From positions 1 through 11,935 of the forward strand of contig JAEYXX010000035.1 of NCBI GenBank assembly GCA_023431055.1: DNA of 11,935 bases, written 5' to 3'. Positions 2,970 to 7,260 of this stretch are shown piece after piece. This DNA is from Pseudomonadota bacterium (GTDB lineage Bacteria > Pseudomonadota > Gammaproteobacteria > Pseudomonadales > Pseudomonadaceae). Position 1 is the stretch's first letter, and the number at the start of each line of letters is the position of its first letter. The translations under genes and the position numbers were made by a program. Below the pieces are notes generated by a model. The model did not search any database. It had not been told where the DNA came from and saw nothing but the letters and a program-made list of their open reading frames with translations.

Positions 2970-3662
2970 ATGCGCCTGGATCGCTTCCTCAGCAACTTCC
3001 CGCGTTTCAGCCGCCAGGACAGCCGCCTGCTGATCAGCGCTGGGCGCCTGCGTGTGGATGGCGCCGTGGTACACGATCCGCGCCACGAGGTGCGCGACTT
3101 CCAGCGTGTCGAACTGGATGACGAACTGCTGCAAGCCGGGCGCAGCGCGCGCTACTGGATGCTGCACAAACCGGTCGGCGTGGTCAGCGCCACCGAGCAC
3201 GACGAACACCGCACCGTCCTCGATCTGCTCGACGAGCCGGACAAACACGACCTGCACCTGGCCGGGCGCCTCGACCTGAACACCAGCGGCCTGCTGCTGA
3301 TCACCAACGACGGGCGCTGGTCACGGCGTATCACCCAGCCGCAAGAGCGTAAGCCCAAGGTCTACCACGTCACCACCGAACAGCCGATCACCGCCGAGTA
3401 CGCCGAGGTCTTCGCCCAAGGCCTGTACTTCGCCTTCGAAGACCTCACCACCCTGCCCGCCCAGCTCGACGTGCTGAGCAGCCACCAAGCCCGGCTGACC
3501 CTGTTCGAAGGCCGTTACCATCAGGTCAAGCGTATGTTCGGCCACTTCCGCAATCGCGTCGTCGCCCTGCACCGCGAGAGCATGGGCGAAATCGTCCTCG
3601 ACCCACAGCTCGCCCCCGGCCAATACCGCGCACTGACGGATGCGGAAATCGCCAGCGTTTGA
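2970..3662 (+). CDS. rsuA: 16S rRNA pseudouridine synthase, RsuA family
   Basis: A 230-residue protein that matches E. coli RsuA (231 residues) along its whole length. RsuA converts U516 of 16S rRNA to pseudouridine during small-subunit assembly. An S4-like RNA-binding domain occupies about residues 1-58 (MRLDRFLSNF start). The catalytic domain follows, with the family motif GRLDLNTSGLLL at 99-110, whose Asp102 is the expected nucleophile. Further on are EGRYHQVKRMF and a C-terminal LAPGQYRALTDAEIASV segment, both very close to RsuA. A good ribosome site, GAGGAG at 2952-2957, lies inside the end of the preceding gene, 12 bases before the ATG. Paralogues RluB/E/F share the fold, so the exact target uridine is inferred from overall similarity, length and terminal segment. 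Confidence 0.88.
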   Translation: MRLDRFLSNFPRFSRQDSRLLISAGRLRVDGAVVHDPRHEVRDFQRVELDDELLQAGRSARYWMLHKPVGVVSATEHDEHRTVLDLLDEPDKHDLHLAGRLDLNTSGLLLITNDGRWSRRITQPQERKPKVYHVTTEQPITAEYAEVFAQGLYFAFEDLTTLPAQLDVLSSHQARLTLFEGRYHQVKRMFGHFRNRVVALHRESMGEIVLDPQLAPGQYRALTDAEIASV

Positions 3663-4055: not shown

Positions 4056-4943
4056 ATGAGGCCAGAAACCGCAGTCGTCGAGATCAACAGGAAGCACAAG
4101 GTACACACGGAGTTCTACGGCAACCCGGCAGCAAGCAAGACCATCATCCTGGTCAATGGCTCCCTGGCGACCACCGCCTCGTTCGCGCAAACGATCAAGT
4201 ACCTGCAGCCGCAGTTCAACGTAGTGGCCTTCGACTTGCCCTATGCCGGCCAGTCGAAGCCGCACAACAGCGACTTCACGCCCATCAGCAAGGAAGACGA
4301 AGCGGCGATCCTGCTGCACCTGATCGCCCACTACGGTGCCAACTACCTGATGTCCTTCTCCTGGGGTGGTGTCGCCTCCATGCTCGCCCTGGCCCAACGC
4401 CCGGCGACCCTGGAGCGGGCGGCGATCTGCTCTTTCTCGCCGATCCTCAACGTGCCGATGCTCGACTACCTGCACAAGGGCCTGCGCTTCCTGAACGCAG
4501 TGGATCGCGACAACGTCGCCCTGCTGGTCAACAGCACCATCGGCAAGCACCTGCCGTCGCTGTTCAAGCGCTTCAACCACAAGCACGTTAGCACCCTGGA
4601 CGAACACGAATACCGGCAGATGTACGCCCACATCAAACAGGTGCTGAGCATGGAAGCGCACTGCAGCATGGAGTGCCTGCAGGCCATCGACATCCCGCTG
4701 CTGTTCGTCAATGGCGACCGTGACGAATACACCTCGGTGGAAGACGCCTGCCTGTTCGCCCAGCACATCGACCACGCCCAGTTCGCCGTGATCGACGATG
4801 CCGGCCACTTCCTCGACATGGAACACAAGGCCGCCTGGCTGCAGACCCAACGCGTATTGCTGGACTTCTTCAACGCCCCCAGCAAACGCCTGCAACTGCC
4901 AGTCAAAGGCGACCTGCGCGACCTCCAGGCGATGGCGGTATGA
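4056..4943 (+). CDS. phaG: PhaG, (R)-3-hydroxyacyl-ACP:CoA transacylase / 3-hydroxyacyl-ACP thioesterase
   Basis: PhaG links fatty acid synthesis to medium-chain polyhydroxyalkanoate formation by taking (R)-3-hydroxyacyl chains off ACP; it was described as a CoA transacylase and later as a thioesterase working with an acyl-CoA ligase. The 295-residue length equals that of P. putida PhaG and P. aeruginosa RhlA, and the start (MRPE), NGSLATTASFAQT (34-46), SFSWGG (100-105) and IGKHLPSLFKRFN (162-174) follow PhaG closely. The alpha/beta hydrolase triad is Ser102, Asp223 (NGDRDEYT) and His251 (DAGHFLD), at the same numbers as in RhlA. The H-x4-D motif reported for PhaG is present as His177...Asp182. 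RhlA is the main alternative, but no rhlB follows and the sequence is nearer PhaG. AGGAGG at 4043-4048 sets the start, seven bases before the ATG. The gene stands alone. Confidence 0.92.
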   Translation: MRPETAVVEINRKHKVHTEFYGNPAASKTIILVNGSLATTASFAQTIKYLQPQFNVVAFDLPYAGQSKPHNSDFTPISKEDEAAILLHLIAHYGANYLMSFSWGGVASMLALAQRPATLERAAICSFSPILNVPMLDYLHKGLRFLNAVDRDNVALLVNSTIGKHLPSLFKRFNHKHVSTLDEHEYRQMYAHIKQVLSMEAHCSMECLQAIDIPLLFVNGDRDEYTSVEDACLFAQHIDHAQFAVIDDAGHFLDMEHKAAWLQTQRVLLDFFNAPSKRLQLPVKGDLRDLQAMAV

Positions 4944-4973: not shown

Positions 4974-5016
4974 TCGGGCACCTCTAGAAACGTAGGTAGT
5001 TTCTAGAGGTGCCCGA
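4974..5016. terminator. Perfect 18-bp hairpin after phaG
   Basis: TCGGGCACCTCTAGAAAC (4974-4991) is matched perfectly by its reverse complement at 4999-5016, around the loop GTAGGTA. It starts 30 bases after the phaG stop and ends shortly before the tRNA promoter. No T run follows on either side, so it is not a classic intrinsic terminator. It could be a processing or stability hairpin, or a dispersed palindrome or remnant transposon end. Confidence 0.5.
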
Positions 5017-5066: not shown

Positions 5067-5140
5067 GCGGGTGTCGTATAATGGTAATACCCTAGCTTCC
5101 CAAGCTAGAGCCGTGGGTTCGATTCCCATCACCCGCTCCA
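5067..5140 (+). tRNA. tRNA-Gly (anticodon CCC)
   Basis: A complete cloverleaf is visible. The acceptor stem is GCGGGTG (5067-5073) with CACCCGC (5130-5136). The D arm is GTAT/ATAC (5076-5090). The anticodon stem is CTAGC/GCTAG around the loop TTCCCAA, with anticodon CCC at 5099-5101. The T arm is GTGGG-TTCGATT-CCCAT, and CCA is encoded at 5138-5140. It reads GGG codons. An intrinsic terminator follows 11 bases later. Its 3' end, from the T arm on, is repeated at 7053, which marks this gene as an integration site for the downstream island. Confidence 0.96.
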
Positions 5141-5210
5141 GACAGCCAAGCAAAAGCCCCGTCATCACTGACGGGGCTTTTTCGTTTCCGGCGTTTGAAG
5201 GGCTTGACCG
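5115..5210 (+). repeat. Left direct repeat (attL-like): tRNA-Gly 3' end plus terminator
   Basis: Bases 5115-5158 are identical to 7053-7096 (44 bases). After one mismatch the match continues for 29 bases (5160-5188), then more loosely to about 5210. The repeat covers the tRNA T-loop, 3' acceptor strand, CCA and terminator. Such 3'-end duplication is the usual trace of site-specific integration into a tRNA gene. Confidence 0.85.
5152..5182 (+). terminator. Intrinsic terminator of tRNA-Gly
   Basis: AAAAGCCCCGTCA (5152-5164) pairs with TGACGGGGCTTTT (5169-5181) around the loop TCAC, and the stem ends in TTTTT. It is a strong stem with a U tail, placed right after the tRNA. It is part of the direct repeat found again at 7090-7120. 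Confidence 0.9.
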
Positions 5211-5267
5211 CAAGGGTTTGAGCTGAGAAAGGTGGCGCTTTGCGATCAGACGAAAGGCGTCAGGCAG

Positions 5268-5289
5268 AAAATAAATCTGTCCCCTTTTT
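5268..5289 (-). repeat. GGGGACAGATTTATTT motif, copy 1 (inverted)
   Basis: AAATAAATCTGTCCCCTTTT at 5269-5288 is the exact reverse complement of copies 2 and 3. It lies about 26 bases beyond the 3' end of the minus-strand gene 5315-5764. From memory this motif is widespread in gammaproteobacterial intergenic DNA and is often wrongly translated as 'KRGQIYF'. Confidence 0.85.
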
Positions 5290-5314
5290 GTTCTATTCGT
5301 GACCATCCTCAACG

Positions 5315-5764
5315 TTAGAGCAACTGTCCAATCTCGCGTCCAGCGCCTGCGAGGTGATCAGTAACGAACGACGCGAAACCGACCGCAAGCAACTCGTCCA
5401 TGCCAATGCGAATGCTTTTCGGTCGATTAATTTTTCCCGAAGCCACTCTTGCAGAAAGATCGTGGACGCCTCCTTCTCCCGAATAGAGACTTCCGTATAT
5501 GACTGGAGGTTGGGGAAAGTAGGGCTCTGAGTAAGATACGCGCAGGCTGACGAATGCTTCGGTGCGTTCGCTTTTCCATTGCTTCTCGAAGAAATATCCC
5601 CACCACAAGCGATCTAAACCATGGCCCAAATCTAACCTGTTTCGGTTGCCTGCGTCGCGCAAGGCGATGCCAAGAGACGAGATATAAGAGATAGAACTCT
5701 TCAGACAGTCGTCGAGATTCGCCTCGTTGGCCCGAAAAATGATCTCCGATTCGCGGATGTCCAT
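5315..5764 (-). CDS. Hypothetical island protein, soluble, 149 residues
   Basis: I do not recognise this protein. It is predicted soluble, with no signal peptide or membrane helix. A helical, acidic N-terminal third (residues 1-38) leads to an aromatic-rich middle, LWWGYFFEKQW (53-63), then YSEPYFPQPPVIYGSLYSG (78-96). The C-terminal part is GMDELLAVGFASFVTDHLAG (121-140). The ATG at 5764 has only a weak ribosome site (AGAG, upstream on the minus strand). The gene is bracketed by an 8-bp inverted repeat: GTTAGAGC at 5314-5321, overlapping its stop codon, and GCTCTAAC at 5772-5779, just before its start. Motif copies 1 and 2 lie outside that. Size and cassette setting would suit an immunity or accessory protein, but that is speculation. 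Confidence 0.7.
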   Translation of the reverse strand: MDIRESEIIFRANEANLDDCLKSSISYISSLGIALRDAGNRNRLDLGHGLDRLWWGYFFEKQWKSERTEAFVSLRVSYSEPYFPQPPVIYGSLYSGEGGVHDLSARVASGKINRPKSIRIGMDELLAVGFASFVTDHLAGAGREIGQLL

Positions 5765-5786
5765 CTGATGCGCTCTAACTTTTGAA

Positions 5787-5808
5787 AAAAGGGGACAGAT
5801 TTATTTAT
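5787..5808 (+). repeat. GGGGACAGATTTATTT motif, copy 2
   Basis: AAAAGGGGACAGATTTATTT at 5787-5806 lies between the minus-strand genes 5315-5764 and 5836-6291. It shares two further bases (AT) with copy 3. Its CAGATTT can pair with AAATCTG at 5818-5824, giving a 7-bp stem with a 15-base loop. Confidence 0.85.
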
Positions 5809-5835
5809 GGAACTTAAAAATCTGGATGCGTTGGA

Positions 5836-6291
5836 TTAGCTAGCCAAAGGCGATGATCTTTCACCTTTGCCTGCAAGAATTTTAATATGCTTTGGCATAA
5901 GGCTCAACATACAGAGTAGAGACAAATGCACAAGTATTGATGGAAGAACACCAACTAGAAGCGTCAAGTAACTGAGCTCTCTAGAATTCGCAATATCTGC
6001 CAGCACATTAATCAGATTCCAAGGAATAGTTCTAAAGAAAAACAAAACAAAGACAAAAATGGAAACGACTAAGACGCAGAATAAATAGACCGCTGAAAGA
6101 AATTTATTACGACCAGCGAGAATCAATACTGAGAGTGCAAAAGGCAGTGAAATAAGAAAGGCCCAAAAAAGACTTTCACCTAGTTCCGCCTCACAATTCC
6201 TTGCTCCCCCGCATGAGCCAATAACACCGAACACAACAAAACCAGCGGATAGTGCTGCAAGACCGAGAATCATGCGAATCAGTATCAGCAT
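5836..6291 (-). CDS. Hypothetical island membrane protein, four helices, 151 residues
   Basis: I do not recognise this family. Four hydrophobic segments (about residues 3-25, 40-59, 64-86 and 107-131 from the chosen start) predict a small inner-membrane protein. A short loop between the first two has two cysteines (SCGGARNC, 26-33), and the tail is basic (KHIKILAGKGERS). The ATG at 6291 is preferred: AGGTG lies just upstream on the minus strand. The longer version starting at 6330 has no ribosome site, begins inside the 60-bp repeat, and its ATG is ACG in the other repeat copy. Base composition is far more AT-rich than the backbone, which supports transfer. It reads away from gene 6400-6870, from which the terminator at 6361-6379 separates it. 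Confidence 0.72.
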   Translation of the reverse strand: MLILIRMILGLAALSAGFVVFGVIGSCGGARNCEAELGESLFWAFLISLPFALSVLILAGRNKFLSAVYLFCVLVVSIFVFVLFFFRTIPWNLINVLADIANSRELSYLTLLVGVLPSILVHLSLLCMLSLMPKHIKILAGKGERSSPLAS

Positions 6292-6320
6292 GTAGCACCT
6301 AGCATTGACTGGAAATTGGA

Positions 6321-6380
6321 AGCTAGCCATAGCTTGCAGGCCTGTCTAGCAGCTGCGTCGAAAAAGTGTCGAAGACACTG
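6321..6380 (-). repeat. 60-bp direct repeat, copy 1, with minus-strand terminator
   Basis: These 60 bases match 6908-6967 with seven mismatches and no gap. The most conserved half (6351-6380) contains, on the minus strand, AGTGTC-TTC-GACACT followed by TTTT, an intrinsic terminator for the gene ending at 6400. The other half reaches the upstream region of the next gene. Confidence 0.85.
6361..6379 (-). terminator. Terminator of island gene 6400-6870
   Basis: Read on the minus strand, a 6-bp stem AGTGTC/GACACT with loop TTC is followed by TTTT, about 20 bases past the stop of the gene at 6400. The stem is short but the U tail is right. Confidence 0.6.
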
Positions 6381-6385
6381 AAGCC

Positions 6386-6407
6386 AAAAGGGGACAGATT
6401 TATTTAT
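6386..6407 (+). repeat. GGGGACAGATTTATTT motif, copy 3
   Basis: AAAAGGGGACAGATTTATTT at 6386-6405 plus AT, identical to copy 2 over 22 bases. It overlaps the 3' end of the minus-strand gene: the TAA stop (complement of 6400-6402) is supplied by the motif. Confidence 0.85.
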
Positions 6408-6870
6408 CACCGATAGCGAATTTTCTTTTTTCTTTTCGATACTTGAAATCTCGCCTAACCATTACTCCAAGCATCGCTAGTGAGTATATTGCAGGTCCCC
6501 CACCACATAAAAAAAGCTCCACGCCATTAGATGTAGTGGGTAATGGCGCCCCCATTCTCACATAGAGAATTACGAATGCTGAAACACCCAGAACTATTCC
6601 TGCAACCACCCCTTTACTTAGAGTACTGAGACGCTCCCTATTTTGAAAAAGCGCAAGGCGCCATGAGGAGACCATGCCAAGAGTAATCATAATTATTAAA
6701 TAAGCAGGAAAATCAATTACTCTTTGCCCAGTAGATATTTCGAATGGAAGAAGAATTAAGACCAATAACCAGCCCAGTGAAGATGGCGTTAAAAACATTA
6801 TGCCAAGCACAATAGATAGTGCTTGCTGGCTGTCGCTTGGACCAGACCTATATTTATATCCTTGATACAT
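6400..6870 (-). CDS. Hypothetical island membrane protein, four helices, 156 residues
   Basis: I do not recognise this family. Hydrophobic segments at about residues 17-42, 53-71, 86-105 and 118-138 predict a four-helix membrane protein. The N-terminus is polar (MYQGYKYRSG) and the C-terminus strongly basic (RRDFKYRKEKRKF), so both ends probably face the cytoplasm. The ATG at 6870 is chosen because AGGAAG lies eight bases upstream; a TTG one codon earlier is possible. The stop codon falls inside a motif copy, so the original end may have been replaced when the boundary formed. The gene is AT-rich like its neighbour and similar in size and layout, but I see no clear sequence similarity between them. 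Confidence 0.72.
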   Translation of the reverse strand: MYQGYKYRSGPSDSQQALSIVLGIMFLTPSSLGWLLVLILLPFEISTGQRVIDFPAYLIIMITLGMVSSWRLALFQNRERLSTLSKGVVAGIVLGVSAFVILYVRMGAPLPTTSNGVELFLCGGGPAIYSLAMLGVMVRRDFKYRKEKRKFAIGDK

Positions 6871-6907
6871 CAAGCATTCTTCCTAGTGTTTGGTGTCTTG
6901 CGAGCGA

Positions 6908-6967
6908 AGCTAGCCGTAGCCCTCAAGCCTGTCTAGCTGCTGTGTCGAAAAAGTGTCGAAGACACTG
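6908..6967 (-). repeat. 60-bp direct repeat, copy 2, with orphan minus-strand terminator
   Basis: This is the second copy of the repeat at 6321-6380 (53 of 60 bases identical, offset 587). The hairpin AGTGTC-TTC-GACACT plus T run is fully conserved (about 6948-6966). Here no gene lies upstream on the minus strand, so the terminator serves nothing visible, as if a further gene unit had been lost. Confidence 0.85.
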
Positions 6968-7052
6968 CAAGGGATAGCGGAAAAATGCTGTAGCTGCTGG
7001 GCTGCAAGGCCAGAAAAGCCGGGCTTTGCGGATCACAGCGAAGGGCCGGAAA

Positions 7053-7149
7053 GGGTTCGATTCCCATCACCCGCTCCAGACAGCCAAGCAAAAGCCTCGT
7101 CATCACTGACGGGGCTTTTTCGTTTCTGAGCGTTTGAAAGGTTTGACCG
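7053..7149 (+). repeat. Right direct repeat (attR-like): tRNA-Gly 3' fragment plus terminator
   Basis: GGGTTCGATTCCCATCACCC and the bases up to 7078 reproduce the tRNA-Gly T arm, acceptor strand and CCA, but there is no 5' half, so this is not a tRNA gene. The terminator copy follows at 7090-7120 with one C-to-T change in the stem. It marks the island's right border. Confidence 0.85.
7090..7120 (+). terminator. Copy of the tRNA-Gly terminator at the island border
   Basis: AAAAGCCTCGTCA pairs with TGACGGGGCTTTT around TCAC, with a G-T wobble where the left copy has G-C. It should still act as a plus-strand terminator and would insulate the MscS gene from island transcription. Confidence 0.75.
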
Positions 7150-7231
7150 AAAGGACTCTCGCAGACGTGAATCACGCTAGCTGAACCAGCCGAGACCAAT
7201 TATTCCCCGGAACTTCTGCCCCCCAATGCCA

Positions 7232-7260
7232 CCAGAAATCTATACGTCTTTTTCTGGAGG
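7232..7260 (+). promoter_or_regulatory. Hairpin overlapping the MscS ribosome site
   Basis: CCAGAAA (7232-7238) pairs with TTTCTGG (7251-7257). The right arm runs into the ribosome site GGAGG (7256-7260) of the channel gene, so folding could partly hide it. The stem is AT-rich and only seven pairs long, so any control effect is speculative. Confidence 0.3.

Follow-up and report, generated by a model that had tools for sequence, protein, structure and literature searches.

The DNA analysed here, referred to throughout as the window, is a stretch of 11,935 nucleotides from a member of the Pseudomonadaceae (GenBank assembly GCA_023431055.1, contig JAEYXX010000035.1), and the element in question is a 1.9-kb island behind a tRNA-Gly(CCC) gene. 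This is the sole tRNA gene in the window and was identified using ARAGORN and Rfam (RF00005). The last 26 bases of the gene and the terminator after it are present a second time as a direct repeat of 74 nt at 99% identity, the first 44 nt being identical, which is far beyond chance; an additional 25 nt beyond the repeat (5191-5215 versus 7130-7154) are 88% identical. Three open reading frames (ORFs), all on the minus strand, lie between the copies. The G+C content is 0.40-0.51 per 500-bp segment from 5251 to 7250 and 45% over positions 5189-6938, with flanks at about 0.55-0.68. No integrase gene was found between the repeats by tblastn with 28 Pf-phage proteins or by Pfam, and in nucleotide comparisons of the island with plasmids and phages the matches listed covered only its tRNA part. 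An earlier, sequence-only reading had described a duplicated tRNA 3' end and terminator around three unrecognised minus-strand genes of foreign composition, with no recombinase, and it was right in all of these respects. It had further taken the island for a tRNA-targeted one; the targeting and the missing integrase stand, but the island is not two-ended, its right junction being the sole element end. Features beyond that description are a conserved right end (RE), a second, truncated RE, and three exact copies of GGGGACAGATTTATTT (Table 1).

Table 1. Features of the tRNA-Gly(CCC) locus, in window coordinates
Feature	Position	Strand	Remarks
tRNA-Gly(CCC)	5067..5140	+	Pf-type attachment gene; ARAGORN, Rfam; gene order shared with Pf-prophage neighbourhood in OQ658363
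Left repeat copy (core and terminator)	5115..5188	+	attB-like junction; no arm sites within 250 bp
LE, conserved left flank	5189..5289	+	terminates in repeat AAATAAATCTGTCCCC(TTTTT)
RAYT-type repeat	5269..5289	-	21-bp perfect inverted partner of 5786-5806
orf1	5315..5764	-	149 aa
RAYT-type repeat	5786..5806	+	left of orf2 unit
orf2	5836..6330	-	164 aa; four hydrophobic segments; unit 98% identical to terminal cargo of L008 satellite
Truncated RE	6352..6380	+	RE model positions 2-30; behind orf2, repeat after it
RAYT-type repeat	6386..6405	+	left of orf3 unit
orf3	6400..6873	-	157 aa; four hydrophobic segments
RE	6939..7052	+	right end of Pf-type satellites; arm pair TGTCGAAAAAGTGTCGA at 6943
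Second tRNA tail and terminator copy	7053..7126	+	attR, by sequence; directly abuts RE

Genes for an alpha/beta hydrolase (4056-4943) and a pseudouridine synthase (2970-3662) lie upstream of the tRNA gene; the two are 62% and 64% identical to genes of record OQ658363 that adjoin tRNA-Gly(CCC) and a Pf prophage, and the gene order is conserved. Pf integrases that use tRNA-Gly are specific for the anticodon CCC, according to the accessible part of Fiedoruk et al. (PMC7549136). Gene order and the choice of the CCC tRNA together identify the window locus as the Pf attachment site of a Pseudomonas mendocina-group chromosome, orthologous to the site at which Pf phages attach in P. aeruginosa. The island thus shares with Pf prophages the tRNA-Gly(CCC) site; their core genes (int, rep, Zot, coat) had no match in the window in the 28-protein tblastn. 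An 18-bp perfect inverted repeat with a 7-nt loop (4974-5016) was also seen between the hydrolase gene and the tRNA gene.

Comparison loci were collected with the protein of the MscS gene downstream of the island, which yielded 76 loci (L numbers denote loci and G numbers genomes), and the nearest flanks were 96% identical for the hydrolase (L059) and 93% for MscS (L114). Seventeen P. mendocina-group loci were used (L001-L011, L016, L022-L025, and L059); the P. straminea-type MscS loci (L012-L015, L017-L021, L045, and L057, without a tRNA-Gly within 8 kb) and more distant matches were left out. Two loci, L003 and L025, are near-empty, with the tRNA gene, the terminator, and about 0.7 kb to MscS, and sequence related to this stretch and equal to it in length follows the right repeat in L112 and L114, where integrase-bearing elements occupy the site. 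The sequence-only reading had named empty sites and other cargo between the repeats in related genomes, and an integrase next to the 44-base sequence, as things to look for; besides the near-empty sites just described, cargo that differs between strains and, in related strains, an integrase beside the same tRNA tail were both present, which supports the hot spot that it had suggested. An ancient tandem tRNA remnant was considered as the source of the second repeat copy and was rejected, since the cargo varies and the right end of an integrase-bearing element abuts this copy.

The RE is a segment of about 115 bp that occurs at 13 of the 17 loci; it was not found at L002, L003, L023, or L025. 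For this count L109-L112 stand for L005, L009, L010, and L016, and loci reached via RE in G217, G263, G080, G094, G025, and G285 are not included. The segment is partial in L001 and L006 and complete in the other 11, where it abuts a GGGTTCGATTCCC-like core and ends in GGGTT, GGGTC, or GCGTT of the core-like sequence. Mean column identity was 87% in an alignment of 15 chosen copies, from which the L001 and L006 copies and, for L005, the middle array had been omitted. The corresponding model has matches at E <= 0.001 in 16 of the same 17 genomes, weak matches at other places included, and at 1e-6 in 14 of 298 genomes of the genus. Four weak matches at other places, in G007, G010, G013, and G263, lie at most about 15 kb from Zot and a 70% integrase, and are Pf-like prophages. 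Separately, L126 (G180), a locus of a more distant Pseudomonas, combines tRNA-Gly(CCC) with part of the repeat and, some 4 kb downstream, a weak RE, so that the hot spot may extend outside the P. mendocina group.

Two kinds of element occupy the site. Type A comprises L008, L109, L111, L112, L113, L114, and the more distant L118, with G005 assigned by its integrase. These have an integrase adjoining the tRNA gene, then a rep gene, PA0719-, Xis-, and repressor-like genes, AT-rich cargo, and RE. A PA0728-like integrase (48-54% identity), a PA0727-like rep, and the PA0719-, Xis-, and repressor-like genes were present in all seven satellites examined, rep being in pieces in L118. Zot, CoaA, CoaB, ssb, and PA0725 had no match in the seven (tblastn with the 28 Pf proteins, E 1e-3); a PA0722-like piece was detected in L112, in which the interval from rep to Xis is about 1.4 kb, too short to house the missing phage genes. 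Type A elements are therefore best read as Pf-type satellites of filamentous phages (inoviruses) that probably depend on a helper. Zot homologues occur in 12 of 24 genomes, and in the IMG/VR contigs L135 and L138 a satellite and most of a Pf-like phage stand back to back, flanking a tRNA-SeC gene.

Type B comprises 12 cassettes without an integrase (the window, L001, L005, L007, L022, L024, L059, L110, L115, L116, L117, and L119); L004, L006, and L011 reach a contig edge and belong to neither type. Their layout is tRNA tail, terminator, the left flank LE, which is about 100 bp long except in L059 (about 50 bp), then cargo and RE. MscS lies to the right in 11 of the 12, the exception, L119, meeting a contig edge; the cassette of G285 has no MscS anchor because of a contig edge. 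To the left of the core stands the tRNA gene directly in 7 of the 12 (the window, L001, L007, L024, L059, L115, and L117), a satellite-type RE in L005 and L022, and another element in L110, L116, and L119. No tRNA-Gly was found between the left core and the edge of the fetched sequence for the cassettes of G010, G094, and G285 (73, 76, and 53 kb), and in these another element ends right before the core. As a side observation, the core behind the different element in L110, L116, and L119 reads GGGTGCTGTTCCC, so a second kind of integrase seems to use the same tRNA tail. In L110 the left core is followed by TTCGCCCGCTCC in place of ATCACCCGCTCC; the more distant L118 shows this in its tRNA-Gly too, and an import from another species is possible.

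The two types differ in their short repeats near the ends. The TGTCGAAAAAGTGTCGA or TGTCGA pair is a putative integrase arm site, read from repeat conservation. Satellite left ends carry two TGTCGA, at +84 and +95 from the core (7/7), whereas no TGTCGA occurs within 250 bp of the core at the left ends of the cassettes (12/12, the window included). On the right, the pair was found, with at most one mismatch, in six of the seven satellites (not L118) and in 9 of the 12 cassettes, and it is exact in the window RE. Both ends thus carry the pair in 6/7 satellites, and the left end in 0/12 cassettes. Among three Pf records fetched without use of the pattern, the pair lies near both prophage ends in AY324828 and OQ658363 and was not seen in phage 62-2; the IMG/VR contigs L131-L138 were retrieved via the pair, and its presence there is no test. 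In the accessible text of Li et al. (PMC7379572), the Pf4 proteins Int and Xis bind attL, and Xis binds attR and not attB.

The site accordingly holds, at the level of sequence, a family of satellites and cassettes with a shared RE, differing cargo, and left arm pairs in the satellites alone. Cassettes directly behind the tRNA gene (7 of 12, the window among them) have a left junction that resembles an intact attB. With arm sites on the right and none on the left, the window cassette is bounded by attB-like and attR-like junctions, and of the features that define type A (the integrase, rep, Xis, and repressor genes and an arm pair at either end) it has the right end alone. This one-sided structure reads as the parked right half of a satellite: the island probably consists of satellite cargo, RE, and attR lying beside attB, and would move with satellites. 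Remnants of the satellite repressor tail (27-91 bp) were found in six cassettes (L001, L022, L059, L116, L117, and L119); in five of the six the remnant starts at most about 15 bp from the end of LE or, in L059, from an internal AAATAAATCTGTCCCCTTTT copy, at varying points, and in L116 the repeat is degraded and the repressor-like frame begins about 25 bp behind it. An origin by plain internal deletion within a satellite resident at the tRNA gene was rejected, as the left arm sites would persist and are kept in none of the 12.

The window cargo genes are near-orphans. None of the three had a match in Pfam (E 0.1), PHROGs (0.1), or PADLOC (0.01), so no known defence gene was detected among them, and a shared-word search of 5.8 billion proteins returned two relatives for orf1, one for orf2, and six for orf3 (one of these being the window-like copy itself). 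Across the genus, orf3 has a match in 1 of 398 genomes, at 33% identity. A simple hydropathy scan suggests that two of the three proteins, those of orf2 and orf3, are small and membrane-like. The structure model of orf1 (mean predicted local distance difference test score, pLDDT, 56) was too weak, and the search with it, which gave no PDB match at E <= 0.001, was disregarded; the orf3 model was too weak as well (mean pLDDT 48.9). The orf2 unit and the terminal cargo of the P. yangonensis satellite (L008) are 98.1% identical over 567 nt, with the MscS flank at 89.7%, which shows that satellites and cassettes have exchanged sequence at some time.

Other members carry known systems. PADLOC was applied to part of the ORFs of 10 of the 12 cassettes (L024 and L110 being left out), and matches were obtained in five of the ten, each scanned in part; there was none for L007, L115, the L022 cassette, or one L059 ORF. 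Systems and domains recorded in cassettes and satellites include a Type II restriction-modification system in the L001 cassette, AriAB in the L022 satellite (PADLOC), PtuA/PtuB (Septu) in L116, a reverse transcriptase with an ATPase-Toprim protein (retron type I-B) in L117, a HEC-04-like ATPase with a C5 methylase in L119, a PDC-S15 FRG protein in L005, TIR in the L109 array, AbiTii in the L113 satellite, PIN_8 in L115, and a reverse transcriptase in L059. At E 1e-10, cargo sharing between cassettes was confined to about 210 bp by RE (L001/L024 and L005/L022). Sharing between cassettes and satellites was seen for the 567 nt of the window and L008 and for about 480 nt of L059 with L112 and L113, and the satellites L022 and L114 have 358 nt in common.

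Several observations weigh against a cassette that still moves with satellites. Only 4 of the 12 cassettes (the window, L007, L059, and L119) have a good tRNA-tail copy to the right of RE; the copy is poor in L024, core-like non-tRNA sequence is found in L005, L022, L110, L115, L116, and L117, and the right core is wholly missing in L001. The right arm pair is degraded in L007, L024, and L119. No repressor remnant was found in the other six cassettes, including that of the window. A satellite integrase of at least 93% identity was detected in 7 of 24 genomes, always at the locus (G002, G003, G004, G005, G007, G217, and G263), and in none of the nine genomes in which a cassette but no satellite was found; the best integrases in those nine are at 71% (G009), 70% (G010), 60% (G006), 58% (G001), 57% (G285), 45% (G094), and 39% (G008), and G080 and G025 gave no match at E 1e-20. 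These cassettes therefore look stranded. RE identity also follows MscS identity of the host (Spearman 0.52, 55 pairs), so vertical descent acts too, in part.

Much of this is what would be expected of a dead relic, in which a satellite decayed, lost its integrase half, and was thereafter immobile and inherited only vertically, the variety of cargo being due to several old satellites decaying separately. The left arm sites missing from every cassette, the nine genomes without a close integrase, the degraded right ends, and the correlation of RE with host all fit such a history, which we regard as a real possibility though on balance not the likelier course. Several cassettes nevertheless hold complete two-gene systems with open frames (restriction-modification, Septu, retron), the orf2 unit is far closer across species than its flanks at 90%, and satellite and cassette stand in tandem in G002 and G005. 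The rival explanations overlap in part, and the likelihoods attached to them are not exclusive.

The conservation of LE and RE around cargos that have so little in common would also suit a slot for homologous recombination, with RecA swapping cargo via the left (tRNA, terminator, LE) and right (RE, core, MscS) flanks and no site-specific recombinase taking part after the first insertion. The correlation between LE and upstream-gene identity (rho 0.44, 15 pairs, p = 0.10) was counted in its favour. Against it, divergence between loci downstream of RE starts directly after GGGTT, with the tRNA tail, GGGTTYAATCCCC, or GGGTTCGATTCCCGCC following, as an integrase crossover would give, and we consider this explanation rather unlikely.

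A further candidate for the movement of the cargo is the 20-bp repeat AAAAGGGGACAGATTTATTT, which is of the type associated with RAYTs (tyrosine transposases associated with repetitive extragenic palindromes). The three exact copies of GGGGACAGATTTATTT in the window compare with a mean of 0.00 in 200 shuffles with two mismatches allowed. If cassettes were driven by RAYTs or as miniature inverted-repeat transposable elements, genes flanked by the repeat would be moved by an IS200-like (Y1) transposase. Copies of the repeat do enclose orf1, in the form of a 21-bp perfect inverted repeat, and are found to the left of the orf2 and orf3 units, and in G009 (L186, 566-1347) a Y1_Tnp (RAYT-like) gene lies between two inverted AAAAGGGGACAGATTTATTT copies, with a SUKH-type immunity gene adjoining. 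Two-ended copies of 63-65 bp occur in L190 and L191; three of the five exact copies of this kind in 8 genomes lie in the hot spot. Of 55 exact single copies counted by position across 16 genomes, 13 also lie there, but the other 42 lie elsewhere. The duplicated tRNA tail and the RE are moreover left unexplained and the island has no transposase gene, which makes this account improbable. Both the orf2 unit and the orf3 unit end in RE, the first RE being cut after model position 30 with the repeat behind it, and the island therefore appears to be made up of two or more cassettes.

Under the interpretation that we favour, the parked right half of a satellite, the left half (integrase to repressor) would have been lost next to a AAATAAATCTGTCCCC repeat copy, leaving a cassette. 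The tRNA gene would keep an intact attB, and a new satellite could therefore insert upstream, which would produce the order tRNA, satellite, cassette. Satellite Int and Xis could then recombine attL with the satellite's own attR, in which case the cassette would stay behind, or with the distal attR of the cassette, in which case it would be taken along. The cassette would thus move only within such a composite. Movement by another element's integrase, as had been suggested from the sequence, would in this scheme occur with an incoming satellite only. The cargo may pay for itself, often as anti-phage defence.

The arrangement has partial counterparts. Cis-mobilizable elements (CIMEs) lose their integration genes and keep attL and attR, according to the accessible text of PMC5704250. 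CIMEs and accretion islands of integrative and conjugative or integrative and mobilizable elements resemble the cassettes in having integrase-less cargo, a shared attachment site, and tandems with an integrase-bearing relative, and no integration or transfer genes were detected in the window island by Pfam, PHROGs, PADLOC, or tblastn with Pf proteins. It differs in keeping attR only, with no attL, in its size of 1.9 kb, and in its presumed helper, an inovirus-type satellite in place of a conjugative element. The ssrA islands of Dehalococcoides, as far as described in the available part of PMC3146451, stand in tandem behind an RNA gene with direct repeats and variable cargo, some without a recombinase; those without an integration module are the nearest analogue in layout, although they involve a serine recombinase, ssrA, and, next to the repeat, a conserved 15-bp motif where the cassettes have a one-sided arm pair. 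Pf filamentous prophages (Inoviridae) share the attachment gene, its neighbourhood, the kind of core, a related integrase, the paired TGTCGAAAAAGTGTCGA near an end in 2/3 Pf records, and variable accessory genes by att; unlike them, the island has no phage gene, and the satellites of the site have no detectable coat, Zot, or ssb. RS1 of CTXphi is likewise a dependant of a filamentous phage. A plasmid satellite of an inovirus was reportedly described by Schmid in 2024. RS1 and plasmid satellites differ from the present Pf-type family, which has its own tyrosine integrase and defence cargo. Rousset and co-workers are said to have described, in 2022, defence hot spots of phages and satellites in which small phage-related elements carry swappable defence genes, as here, with a phage class and an attachment system that reportedly differ from those at this site. 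In the open-access literature searched, which holds few of the subscription papers, no report was found of Pf-type satellites that encode an integrase themselves and carry defence cargo, or of such cassettes, and the family appears not to have been described there.

It seems that swappable genes are parked at this site. More speculatively, cassettes with attB on the left and attR on the right may form a working store of defence genes, with every incoming Pf-type satellite inserting ahead of them, the cassettes leaving with satellites as a composite circle and being carried in the filamentous particles of a helper Pf phage, in a chain of phage, satellite, and cassette; we hold this extension to be doubtful at present. 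If the interpretation is right, it would explain how swappable defence genes come to lie in small recombinase-less islands at a tRNA gene and would tie these islands to Pf-type inovirus satellites, and the one-sided signature (an RE pair and core with no left pair) could be used for searching genomes. Near-orphan genes such as those of the window, placed beside known defence systems, would then be candidates for new defence genes.

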